DNA of 64,000 bases, from NCBI RefSeq assembly GCF_026460985.1, contig NZ_JAPKNM010000056.1, forward strand, positions 1 through 64,000. The letters run 5' to 3'. Below the pieces are notes generated by a model that had not been told where the DNA came from, made no database searches, and worked only from the letters and a program-made list of their open reading frames with translations. Shown here in pieces: positions 34,303 to 37,946 of the stretch. The stretch is from Sphingomonas sp. (GTDB lineage Bacteria > Pseudomonadota > Alphaproteobacteria > Sphingomonadales > Sphingomonadaceae). Every line of letters begins with the position of its first letter. Position 1 is the stretch's first letter. Made by a program: the position numbers and the translations under genes.

Positions 34303-34770
34303 CTATTCGTCGCGCGAGACCTTCTCGTTGCGCTCGTGGCGCTCCTGCGCCTCGACCGTCATCGTCGCGATCGGCCGCGCCTCGAGCCGGGCGAGCGAGA
34401 TCGGCTCGCCAGTCACTTCGCAATAGCCATATTCGCCCTCGTCGATCCGGCGCAGCGCCGCGTCGATCTTGGAGATGAGCTTGCGCTGGCGGTCGCGAGT
34501 GCGCAGCTCGATCGACCAGTCGGTCTCGCTCGACGCGCGATCGGTGAGATCGGCCTCGCGCAGCGAATCGGTCTGCAGCTGGTTGAGGGTGCCCGCCGCC
34601 TCGCGGTAGATCGCGTCCTTCCAGCCCAGCAGCTTCTCGCGGAAATACTCCTGCTGCCGCGGGTTCATGAAGGGTTCGTCGTTGCTCGGCCGATATCCGT
34701 CGTCGCCGTCATTGGCGGCCGGCGGAAAAGGTTTTCCGGGTTCTTCGGAGCGTTCCAAAACCGTAGCCAT
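34303..34770 (-). CDS. dksA: DksA-like RNA polymerase-binding regulator, single cysteine
   Basis: A 155-residue DksA homologue that binds the RNA polymerase secondary channel and works with ppGpp. GGAGAG precedes the ATG at 34770. The central coiled coil carries DLTDRASSETDWSIELRTRD, including the acidic tip, followed by LISKIDAALRRIDEGEYGYC. Of the four zinc-finger cysteines of E. coli DksA only the first is present (GYCEVTGEPIS ... ATMTVEA), so the globular domain cannot bind zinc in the usual way. This is common among alphaproteobacterial DksA proteins. Confidence 0.9.
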   Translation of the reverse strand: MATVLERSEEPGKPFPPAANDGDDGYRPSNDEPFMNPRQQEYFREKLLGWKDAIYREAAGTLNQLQTDSLREADLTDRASSETDWSIELRTRDRQRKLISKIDAALRRIDEGEYGYCEVTGEPISLARLEARPIATMTVEAQERHERNEKVSRDE

Positions 34771-35185
34771 CCCCACTCTCCACACCGGTCACCCAGTGGC
34801 CAAGCCGCTGGATGACTGCTTTTGCCCGCACGCCCTATACTTGCGCGAGAACACATTAACAAGCGTGTCATTATGACAGCCGCGCTGCCTAATCCCCGGT
34901 AACATGGAGGAAATTAGCGACGGCTGAACAACAACCGCAGAGCGTCTCTCATTAACCATGTTCCTTAACAAGTAACGACGCGGCCCACGCGCGAACCGTA
35001 CCGAAACCGCACATTAACCATAAGCTCTGCGCGCCGACGCAAAAAAACAGGCCTGGAACAGGGTAAATGGCGCTCGTTTGGCTTGCGCTTAATAGTTTGT
35101 TTTGCGTTTCCTCCTCATTGACGGCGCAGAAGCTGCTGATGGTTCCGTGGGGAGCGAGCGCCAGCAACAGGAAGAGTGGGACATC
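34771..35185. promoter_or_regulatory. 415-bp intergenic region with repeated TTAAC elements
   Basis: This AT-richer gap divides dksA (minus) from the PEP-CTERM gene (plus). ATTAAC occurs at 34855, 34951 and 35013; the last two extend to ATTAACCAT, a CtrA-like half-site. TTAAC also occurs at 34965. The spacing between 34952 and 34965 is TTAA-N9-TTAA rather than the N7 of a full CtrA box. Run A7 lies near 35040. No gene is evident in the gap. Confidence 0.35.
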
Positions 35186-36043
35186 ATGTCGGTTCGCATG
35201 GCTTTGGCGAAACTCTGCGCATGTGCCTGTGGCGGTGCCGTCGTCGGCGGCAGCGGCGTCTATGCGGTGGAGCGCGTCACACAACCCAGCGTGGTCGAGC
35301 AATATACGGTCGCGAAGAAGCGCGTCATCCGCAAGGCGGCGGTGGGGCCCGTGCGGAAGAAGCTCGTCCGCCGCGTGACCACCACCACGACCCAGGATCC
35401 GCCCCAGGTCGTCGTCCTGGCAGCGCAGGGCGCGCCCATCCCCCTTCCCCCGCGCGAGATGCCGGTGGTCGCGGCAGGCGGCGGCGCGGCGGCCGGCGTG
35501 GTCGGTGGCTCGGGCGGCTATGGCGGCTTCGGCGGCGGCTTCTTCGCCGGCGGCTTCTTCGGCAGCTCCGGAAGCAGCTCGGGCAGCAGCAGCGGCATCA
35601 ACATCGAGATCTCGAGCAGCAGCGGCAACGTCTCGACCTCGAGCGGCGTCTCGTCGAGCACGTCGAGCGGCGGTTCCTCGACCAGTACTTCGACGGGCGG
35701 TTCCTCGACCAGCACCTCGACCGGCGGCTCCTCGACCTCCTCGTCCACGTCGAGCGGCGTCAGCTCGTCGACTTCGTCCTCCACTTCCTCGTCCACCTCG
35801 TCCTCGACCTCGTCGAGCACCTCGTCGTCGAGCGGCAATTGGAGCACTTCGAGCGGCTGGAGCACCTCGAGCAGCTGGGGCTGCAAATGGGGCAAGCATT
35901 GCGGCGGTTCGAGCGGCCATCACGGATCGAGCGGCTCGTCGGGCGGCCCCGAGCCCGTCCCCGCTCCGCCGATGATCCTGCTGTTCGGCGGCGCCGCGGC
36001 GGCGCTGGTCGCGCGCAAGCGCTTCGGCAAGAAGAAGGCCTGA
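35186..36043 (+). CDS. Serine-rich PEP-CTERM-type surface/exported protein
   Basis: A 285-residue protein. The ATG at 35186 is preceded by AGGAAGAG. After a short hydrophobic N-terminus (ALAKLCACACGGAVVGG) and a basic segment comes a Gly-rich stretch, then about 125 residues made almost wholly of Ser, Thr and Gly, partly as nine-residue GSSTSTSTG units encoded by 27-bp direct repeats at 35672-35725. The C-terminus has the PEP-CTERM sorting layout: PEPVPAPP, a hydrophobic helix and a basic tail ARKRFGKKKA. Such proteins are processed by an exosortase and often associate with exopolysaccharide. The exosortase gene is not in the window. Confidence 0.8.
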   Translation: MSVRMALAKLCACACGGAVVGGSGVYAVERVTQPSVVEQYTVAKKRVIRKAAVGPVRKKLVRRVTTTTTQDPPQVVVLAAQGAPIPLPPREMPVVAAGGGAAAGVVGGSGGYGGFGGGFFAGGFFGSSGSSSGSSSGINIEISSSSGNVSTSSGVSSSTSSGGSSTSTSTGGSSTSTSTGGSSTSSSTSSGVSSSTSSSTSSSTSSSTSSSTSSSSGNWSTSSGWSTSSSWGCKWGKHCGGSSGHHGSSGSSGGPEPVPAPPMILLFGGAAAALVARKRFGKKKA

Positions 36044-36121: not shown

Positions 36122-36577
36122 TCATTCCGCCTGGAGCAACGCCTCGATCTGCGGCACGGTGTGCCCGGTCAGGTTCTTGTCGATCTCGGCCTTCAGCCGG
36201 TCGCTCACTTCCTTGTGATAATGTTTCCGGAGCTCGCCCAGCGTCCTGGGCGGGGCGACGATGATCAGCGACTCGAAATCGTTGGCGAGCGCGCGCTTCT
36301 TGAGCAGTTCGGCGGTCTCGGCGGCGAAGCGATCTTCCTCCAACTGGTGGAAATCCACCTCCTCCATGTTGCCGGCGCCCCATTGCGCGCCCGCGGTGCG
36401 CGTGCCCATCGCTCCGCCGGCCAGGTCGGTCGCCTGCTGGTTATGGTCGGGATTGTGTTTGTCGACCACCTTCTTCTCGACCTGCAAATTGGGATGGAAG
36501 GCATCGCCTTCGTTCCTGAGGAACAGCATCTTCCGGCCATCCGCGACCACCACGACCGTATCGTGCGGAACCAGCAT
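36122..36577 (-). CDS. Host attachment family protein (Host_attach)
   Basis: A 151-residue protein of the family first named for proteins required for attachment to host cells, related to the archaeal release-factor-like fold. It begins [20 protein letters not shown] and contains [20 protein letters not shown] and [18 protein letters not shown], all family hallmarks. AAGGAGATGAGCG precedes the ATG. It has no signal peptide, so the attachment name should not be read as surface location. The serS gene diverges 88 bp away. Confidence 0.88.
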
Positions 36578-36665: not shown

Positions 36666-37946
36666 ATGCACGACATCCGGTTCATCCGCGAAAACCCCGC
36701 AGCCTTCGACGCCGGCCTGGCCAAGCGCGGGCTGGAGCCGCAGGCCGAAACGCTCGCCGCGCTCGACGAGAAGCGCCGCGCGCTGATCACCGAGCTCCAG
36801 ACGGGCCAGGCGCGCCGCAACGAAGCCTCGAAGGCGATCGGCGCGGCCAAGGCCCAGAAGGACGAAGCGGGCGCGGCGGCGCTGATGGCCGAGGTTGCGA
36901 CGCTCAAGGAGCGGCTCCCCGCGCTCGAGGCCGAGGAAAAGGCGCTGGGCGAGGAACTGGACGGCCGTCTCGCCGCAATCCCCAACCTCCCCCTCGCCGA
37001 CGTGCCCGAAGGGGCCGACGAGGACGACAATGCGCTGGTCCACACGCGCGGCACCCCGCCGACCTTCGCGTTCGAGGCCAGGGAGCATGACGCGATCGGC
37101 CCCGCGCTGGGCCTGGATTTCGAGACCGGCGCCTTGCTCTCGGGCTCGCGCTTCACCTTCGTGCGCGGCGCCGCGGCGCGCCTGCACCGCGCGCTCGGCC
37201 AGTTCATGCTCGACACGCTCACCCGCGAGCACGGCTATGAGGAGACCGTCGTCCCGCTGCTCGTGCGCGGCGAGACCATGTTCGGCACCGGCCAGCTCCC
37301 CAAATTCGCCGAGGACAGCTTCCAGACCAGCGACGGCCGCTGGCTGATCCCTACCTCCGAGGTCAGCCTCACCAACAGCGTGCGCGAGCAGATCCTCTCC
37401 GGAGAGGCGCTGCCGCTGCGCTTCACCGCGCTCTCGCCCTGCTTCCGCTCGGAAGCGGGCTCGGCCGGGCGCGACACGCGCGGCTATATCCGCCAGCACC
37501 AGTTCGAGAAGGTCGAGATGGTCTCGATCACCACGCCGGACCAGTCCGAGGCGGAGCACGAACGGATGACCGCCTGCGCCGAGGACATCCTCGAAAAGCT
37601 CGGCCTCGCCTTCCGCCGGATGAAGCTCTGCACCGGCGACATGGGCTTCTCCGCCGCGCGCACTTACGACCTCGAAGTTTGGCTGCCCGGCCAGGCGCGC
37701 TATCGCGAGATCTCGTCCTGCTCGACCTGCACCGACTTCCAGGCCCGCCGCATGAACGCGCGCTACCGCCCCGAGGGCGAAAAAGCGACGCGCTTCGTCC
37801 ATACGCTCAACGGCTCGGGTCTCGCGGTGGGGCGGACGCTGGTCGCCGTGGTGGAGAACTACCAGCAGGAAGACGGTTCGGTCGCGGTGCCCGCAGTGTT
37901 GCAGCCCTATCTGGGCGGGCTGAATCGCCTGGAGCCGAGGGCGTGA
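36666..37946 (+). CDS. serS: Seryl-tRNA synthetase
   Basis: A 426-residue class II aminoacyl-tRNA synthetase. The ATG at 36666 gives the normal N-terminus [20 protein letters not shown]; the frame is open 135 codons upstream but through another gene's region. The tRNA-binding coiled-coil arm spans about 30-105. The catalytic core has the motif 2 region with [20 protein letters not shown] and motif 3 with [17 protein letters not shown] near the C-terminus. It is followed by a palindromic repeat and surE on the same strand. Confidence 0.97.

Follow-up and report, generated by a model that had tools for sequence, protein, structure and literature searches.

A conserved low-complexity protein of Sphingomonadaceae is mostly co-inherited with the exosortase XrtA and is a candidate for its substrate

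Introduction

Exosortases usually face many unrelated substrates, and the role of an exosortase is therefore hard to test. The locus described here resembles the PEP-CTERM/exosortase system, as set out in the sections of Haft et al. 2006 (PMC1569441) used for this study, in its C-terminal motif followed by a hydrophobic stretch and a basic end, in an exosortase that lies among polysaccharide genes, and in a gene that stands alone after a 400-bp intergenic region; the words Sphingo, Novosphingobium and Erythrobacter do not occur in that paper. A second point of reference is PepA of Aquincola tertiaricarbonis, likewise a PEP-CTERM protein in a polysaccharide-linked system: according to the available part of the report (PMC9850573), its overexpression binds exopolysaccharide to the cells and restores the flocs of an rpoN1 mutant. 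XrtV with the PEPxxWA-CTERM proteins (NF035943, NF035944) is comparable as an exosortase system of the same genus. The MHFG family of PEP-CTERM proteins (NF038119) gives a weak match over the low-complexity end and tail of three relatives (E 0.026–0.062); at 13.6–14.9 bits against a cut-off of 100, this does not amount to membership. A literature survey by title and start of abstract found no paper on the protein itself. Here, we describe its family, architecture and phyletic distribution, starting from a Sphingomonas sequence of 64 kb, the whole stretch of DNA analysed, which we call the window.

A conserved family at the dksA–serS locus

The gene (35186..36043, plus strand) encodes a low-complexity protein of 285 amino acids, plus stop, with an exosortase-type tail. 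A longer listed frame starts with TTG at 35102, and the conserved MSVR start lies at 35186; a start motif of this kind was used to place the starts in our set of 115 proteins, and the start count there is accordingly non-independent. The preliminary description had proposed a gene over this span, which we confirm: the frame is open and conserved across species, and its retention across species indicates that it is not a product of chance. A protein search matched 28 of 61 relatives, comprising the window's own genome, 27 of the 36 other genomes of the genus and none of the 24 from other families of the order; the match in G018 is a tail fragment only. Scanning a contig collection recovered at least 71 loci, and those listed bear the names Sphingomonas, Sphingobium, Novosphingobium, Sphingopyxis, Hephaestia, Stakelama and Parerythrobacter, among others, with one labelled Bacillus that is likely mislabelled. 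The N-terminal profile A1 also matches 70 of the 71 listed loci (the exception being L085) and identifies the protein in 151 of 249 family-level genomes, spanning 60 of 96 genera.

The gene is embedded in a recurrent neighborhood formed by dksA (34303..34785, minus strand; TIGR02420, 141 bits), a gene with a baeRF family 12/Host_attach domain (36122..36577, minus strand; PF18856, 161 bits; PF10116, 123.6 bits) and serS (36669..37946, plus strand; TIGR00414, 493 bits). Of the relative loci, 61 exceed 12 kb; dksA was present in 48 of these, serS in 47 and the baeRF/Host_attach gene in 38, and in all 48 loci holding dksA it lay at most 1.5 kb from the frame of the low-complexity gene. The protein thus represents a conserved Sphingomonadaceae family whose members combine an almost invariant N-terminus with a middle that varies greatly in length and a conserved tail, and whose gene lies next to dksA.

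Domain architecture and sequence features

The N-terminal segment (residues 1–29; 35186..35272, plus strand), which would serve as an export signal or signal anchor, is near-invariant in the alignment: residues 1–25 hold 18 of the 20 invariant columns among 18 aligned sequences, and S2, K9 and A18 are present in 115 of 115 full-length relatives. Its hydropathy is modest, reaching 1.64 in the best 19-residue stretch (residues 10–28). K9, invariant like A18 (115/115), sits inside the hydrophobic segment of this N-terminus (35186–35260 in the window). Such strong conservation is rare in signal peptides, and the segment may therefore have a further role. It is followed by a basic linker (residues 40–65; 35303..35380, plus strand), Lys/Arg-rich as judged by eye in the alignment of 18. 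We also considered a lipoprotein and rejected it: L-x-A-C is retained throughout the first 24 relatives, yet Cys13 is found in only 99 of 115 and is missing from 16. A Pfam scan of the protein returned chance matches only.

The middle had been described as about 125 residues of nearly pure Ser, Thr and Gly with direct 27-bp coding repeats, and both features hold. Residues 125–249 comprise 65 Ser, 17 Thr and 21 Gly out of 125, the composition being densest over residues 126–230 (35561..35875, plus strand), where 93 of 105 residues are Ser, Thr or Gly. The two direct repeats (copy 1, 35672..35698; copy 2, 35699..35725; both plus strand), recovered with Tandem Repeats Finder, agree at 24 of 27 positions; the program reports 27 bp × 3.9 copies over 35636–35737 with a score of 120, the top of 12 rows in the window. 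In 115 distinct full-length relatives, which were chosen by resemblance and describe the members rather than their frequency, the whole protein ranges from 244 to 602 aa (median 324), and the middle averages 77% Ser/Thr/Gly and 1.8% charged residues. Fourteen of the 115 (L005, L007–L009, L014, L017, L027, L052, L070, L088, L100, L111, L141 and L142) have an Asn/Gln-rich middle, defined as more than 15% Asn plus Gln; the constant property of this region therefore seems to be that it is flexible and uncharged, rather than that it offers Ser/Thr for O-glycans.

The expected variation in repeat length is borne out between close relatives. Across 55 non-independent pairs with at least 85% identity, preselected for similar N-termini and drawn from related genomes, 267 of 312 gaps fall in the middle. 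Over 394 aligned residues, a single 24-aa indel within the middle is all that distinguishes L019 from L068; because L068 comes from a metagenome assembly, collapse of a repeat is possible there. Frameshifted copies of the gene occur in L046 and G026 (L028), which may reflect sequencing error, decay or phase variation.

At the C-terminus, a sorting tail (residues 258–279; 35957..36022, plus strand), delineated with TIGR02595 and our tail profile A2, covers VPAPP, a hydrophobic stretch and the start of a basic end. The complete tail, EPVPAPPMILLFGGAAAALVARKRFGKKKA, is built like a PEP-CTERM signal, with VPAPP, a hydropathy of 1.80 over 19 residues and the basic RKRFGKKK, and the suggestion of an exosortase-type C-terminus is supported by the presence of all three elements. 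By itself, the match of the window protein to TIGR02595 (PEP_CTERM) is borderline, at 12.7 bits in hmmscan and 17.2 bits in the genome search against a cut-off of 16. The family tail profile A2 matches the window tail at E 1.3e-16, this tail being itself a row of A2. Among the 115 relatives, the motif is VPAPP in 107, VPEPS in 7 and VPAPG in 1, followed by 4–8 Lys/Arg. Three of six scanned orthologues pass TIGR02595, and all three are VPEPS members (18.8–23.0 bits), the other three remaining under the cut-off, which points to a PEP-CTERM-type tail whose motif is altered in most members.

Only this protein exceeds the TIGR02595 cut-off in the window's genome, where two further matches stay below it (11.4 and 10.8 bits), A2 gives one match at E 0.1 and PEPxxWA none; judged from these profile matches, it is probably the only XrtA client there. 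This claim is confined to the window's genome in view of the numbers of TIGR02595 matches in the carriers sampled: at E 1, among 50 of the 151 carriers, one genome has 0, 42 have 1–5 and 7 have 6–53. TIGR02595 is also unspecific, with matches at E 1 in 7 of 14 control genomes and over the cut-off in 2.

Co-inheritance with XrtA

The preliminary description had pointed to an exosortase and a polysaccharide cluster as partners to be sought in the genome, and both are present. The window's genome encodes one exosortase (PF09721, 212.7 bits), of class XrtA (TIGR03109, 314.3 bits against a cut-off of 208) and with an EpsI domain. It lies on a separate 7.7-kb contig, not beside the low-complexity gene, and its neighbors match TIGR03108, TIGR03087 and TIGR03019 over the cut-off and TIGR03015 under it; XrtA thus sits among XrtA-linked polysaccharide genes. 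In the relative G021, the XrtA locus also contains the XrtA chain-length determinant TIGR03007. PrsR is encoded in the window's genome as well (669 bits).

Across the 249 family-level genomes, 164 were assigned to the XrtA class by a best TIGR03109 E below 1e-55 (163 genomes score over the curated cut-off). The protein and an XrtA-class exosortase occur together in 147 genomes, the protein without any exosortase match in 4, XrtA-class without the protein in 17 and neither in 81. The last group divides into 35 genomes without an exosortase and 46 that have an exosortase but none of the XrtA class; the protein was found in none of those 46. Fisher's test gives p 7e-43 for the association, a value inflated by ignoring kinship. 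Six genera (g101, g43, g57, g65, g72 and g75) hold both states and are concordant in both traits. On the supported branches of a dksA tree, made by a quick method from 69 of 70 rows (one was dropped for want of a long match), there are six independent pairs with contrasting XrtA states; on average, the protein changes in step with XrtA in 5.9 of them, and it never changes in the opposite sense (median p 0.031). The tree test flatters the association because its negatives were hand-chosen (all 8 same-genus negatives in which dksA was found, among them G018, coded as lacking both; 6 other genomes with neither trait; and only 2 of the 17 with XrtA and without the protein), which does not apply to the 249-genome table.

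The same pattern is seen within the genus. Among 37 genomes, in which long and short exosortases were told apart by frame length (short being 296–419 aa), the protein is present in 27 of 29 with a long intact exosortase frame and in 0 of 7 with only a short one; G026, in which the protein is split between frames, is counted among the 27 same-genus carriers. Both exosortase kinds accompany the protein in G004, G022 and G030, and in G033 a further, distant exosortase match (79 bits) was assigned to neither kind. Class was checked with NCBIfam for the window's genome and G021 (XrtA) and with TIGR03109 for G010, G214, G264 and G304. The seven short-only genomes keep dksA, the Host_attach gene and serS, and the low-complexity gene is missing from the locus. 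We conclude that inheritance of the protein mostly goes with XrtA and not with exosortases at large.

In G018 (L029, L037 and L186), the exosortase is broken by four TGA and one TAG, and PrsR does not exceed the cut-off. Its dksA locus retains only a 110-aa remnant with the tail, and its sister in dksA, G024, has both genes; this is an apparent joint decay of the system.

For PEPxxWA-CTERM proteins, 8–44 matches occur in the ten genomes of the genus that have a short exosortase, and 17–44 in the seven short-only ones, the XrtV class being confirmed by profile in G020 only (386.5 bits). The other 27 genomes of the genus have 0 in 24 cases, the exceptions being G007 (16), G012 (23) and G025 (2). 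In G007 and G012, no short (XrtV-type) exosortase was found alongside these PEPxxWA-CTERM matches; both assemblies are incomplete (84 and 85%).

Exceptions to the association

Discordant genomes are found in eight genera, with XrtA and without the protein in g110, g24, g59, g83 and g97, and with the protein and without an exosortase in g117, g56 and g95. Of the latter kind are G130, G176, G231 and G294, in which PF09721 at E 10 recovered no exosortase, bar an insignificant match of 0.186 in G231. The protein frame of G130 contains an internal TAG. G231 (99% complete) and G294 (100%) have an intact protein frame, and two models found no exosortase in either. Several discordant genomes are poor assemblies: G211 (67%), G306 (73%), G176 (87%), G202 (90%, in 320 contigs) and G289 (in 340 contigs). 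In the genus itself, G013 and G035 have a long exosortase and lack the protein, and they also lack dksA, which is present in 17 of 19 genomes searched; the locus is therefore probably missing from these two assemblies.

Genera g107 and g27 account for 8 of the 17 genomes with XrtA and without the protein, and each of these genomes has 5–18 A2 tail matches at E 0.1. XrtA seems to serve several proteins there and is thus not tied to this substrate everywhere. At the same threshold, A2 gives 4 matches in G097, 3 each in G112 and G116, one weak match each in G067, G100, G202 and G289, and none in G211, G306, G013 and G035; in ten genomes that have an exosortase but none of the XrtA class, matches are absent from eight, while G023 shows two weak ones and G186 one. 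In G097, the best A2 match (8e-13) is a frame of Ser/Thr/Gly repeats that bears a VPAPP tail and is truncated by the end of its contig; it is hence probably a cut copy of the low-complexity gene. In L150 (G260, genus g107), the best tail match is a 172-aa Gly-rich frame with PVPEP, whose N-terminus GKLALCICTGAAVGAGV recalls the family by eye; it may be a distant relative, in a genus that our counts score as negative for the family.

An upstream TTAAC array and promoter candidates

Between dksA and the gene lies a conserved TTAAC array (34856..35018, plus strand), with cores at 34856, 34952, 34965 and 35014, delineated by core density and by enrichment in relatives. It is the sole place in the window with at least three TTAAC cores per 300 bp (in steps of 50). 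The 300-bp upstream regions of 120 distinct relatives contain a mean of 2.41 cores, compared with 0.47 in dinucleotide shuffles and 0.17 in low-GC control stretches of the same loci (n = 183). Core spacings of 60 and 15 recur among the 120 relatives, single cores are found in 117 of 120 upstream regions (320 bp), and three of the commonest upstream 8-mers are CGTTAACC (68/120), TTAACCAT (42/120) and GCGTTAAC (34/120). Sixteen genomes without the gene or with a remnant have 0–1 cores in the first 400 bp beyond dksA, where the window's genome has 4, and none of the seven exosortase loci examined has such an array.

The consensus site of the regulator CtrA is TTAA-N7-TTAAC in the consulted part of PMC7200025, and the upstream 8-mers resemble a repeat of 12 bp in a Sphingomonas phage region, which the available text of PMC9437464 discusses for CtrA sites. 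Of the 120 upstream regions (320 bp), just 3 contain the complete CtrA site (TTAA-N7-TTAA), which falls short of a CtrA regulon and leaves CtrA as a lead; we regard the array as a CtrA-like candidate. Sigma-54 type sites with at most three mismatches occur in 26 of 120 upstream regions, compared with a mean of 16.3 and a maximum of 25 in 50 dinucleotide shuffles; with at most two mismatches, there are 4 of 120 against 3.5 in shuffles, at no common position. The window has a two-mismatch site of this type at 35068–35083, about 118 bp before the start codon; among five close relatives checked, it is common to L050 and not to L043–L046. Given an excess that is weak at most, together with this site, sigma-54 control of the window's gene is possible.

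Proposed role and alternative explanations

From its tail and its co-inheritance with XrtA, we consider it probable that the low-complexity protein is a substrate of XrtA, and in our reading its dedicated one. It would be exported via its N-terminal segment and held in the inner membrane by its C-terminal hydrophobic stretch until XrtA recognizes the VPAPP motif and cuts there, after which the cut protein would be passed to the cell surface. The middle would form a flexible, uncharged brush of Ser/Thr/Gly (Asn/Gln in some species), whose length may drift by repeat slippage and which could act as a spacer that keeps the polysaccharide of the XrtA locus attached to the cell. Exosortase substrates that bind polysaccharide to cells are described in the portions of PMC9850573 and PMC12188702 used here, and the consulted part of PMC11340318 reports that cluster B of Sphingomonas sp. 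LM7 makes a cell-surface-associated polysaccharide and includes an 'Amidotransferase, exosortase associated' gene. By analogy, tethering of the XrtA-locus polysaccharide by our protein is conceivable, with chances we put somewhat short of even. More tentative, and rather doubtful as a whole, is a one-enzyme, one-substrate system of Sphingomonadaceae in which XrtA and its polysaccharide locus would place a single surface brush of variable repeat length, encoded at the distant but fixed dksA–serS locus and switched by the CtrA-type TTAAC array with the cell cycle or a motile/sessile decision, and in which XrtV-reliant lineages with many PEPxxWA substrates would have dropped both.

The same association with XrtA would also arise if the protein were a partner of the XrtA polysaccharide system that XrtA leaves uncut, namely a bitopic protein with an inner-membrane anchor at each end, which might be a spacer in the periplasm or a partner of the polysaccharide assembly machine and would be lost together with it. 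For a signal peptide that is removed, conservation as strong as that of the N-terminus (18 of 20 invariant columns within residues 1–25; K9 in 115/115) would be far from expected, which fits this arrangement, but VPAPP or VPEPS, a hydrophobic stretch and a basic end, present in 114 of 115 relatives, have the build of an exosortase signal, and half of the six scanned orthologues pass TIGR02595; we hold this alternative to be unlikely. Another explanation takes the protein for one of several ordinary PEP-CTERM proteins that has no particular tie to XrtA, the association being due to shared ancestry. The several tail-like proteins in XrtA genomes of g27 and g107, the 42 of 50 carriers with 1–5 TIGR02595 matches at E 1 (and 7 with more) and the eight genera with a discordant genome agree with it, whereas the paired changes on supported branches of the dksA tree, the concordant switches in six genera, the coincidence of gene remnant and broken exosortase in G018 and the lack of a second tail over the cut-off in the window's genome all weigh against it and make it quite improbable. 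Finally, other long frames are open over the same GC-rich repetitive DNA, as they would be if the frame were spurious; conservation of the N-terminus, the tail and the synteny in this very frame across genera refutes that reading, whose chance we regard as negligible.

If the protein is indeed the substrate, a single genome with one XrtA and one good candidate substrate would offer a clean two-gene test: loss of either gene is expected to lead to the same phenotype, and the substrate should be traceable by mass spectrometry. It would also name a protein cargo of the polysaccharide system in Sphingomonas, Sphingobium, Novosphingobium, Sphingopyxis and their relatives.

Comparison with known systems

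For all its likeness to the PEP-CTERM/exosortase system, as characterized in the parts of PMC1569441 consulted, the locus differs from it in several respects. There, genomes in which tails are present have a median of eight, whereas the window's genome has one over the cut-off; the motif is PEP there and VPAPP in most relatives here. A sigma-54 type box lies upstream of most proteobacterial members of that system, whereas here, despite PrsR, none is clearly shared and a TTAAC array is found instead. PepA, in the available part of PMC9850573, is RpoN1-dependent and one of several such proteins in its genome, and its effect on flocs comes from an overexpression experiment, whereas the role of the window's protein is a proposal from sequence. 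In contrast to XrtV and its PEPxxWA-CTERM proteins, with which it shares the genus, the low-complexity protein is missing from the seven genomes that have only the short exosortase; if the proposed link to XrtA is true, it separates two parallel exosortase systems within one genus.
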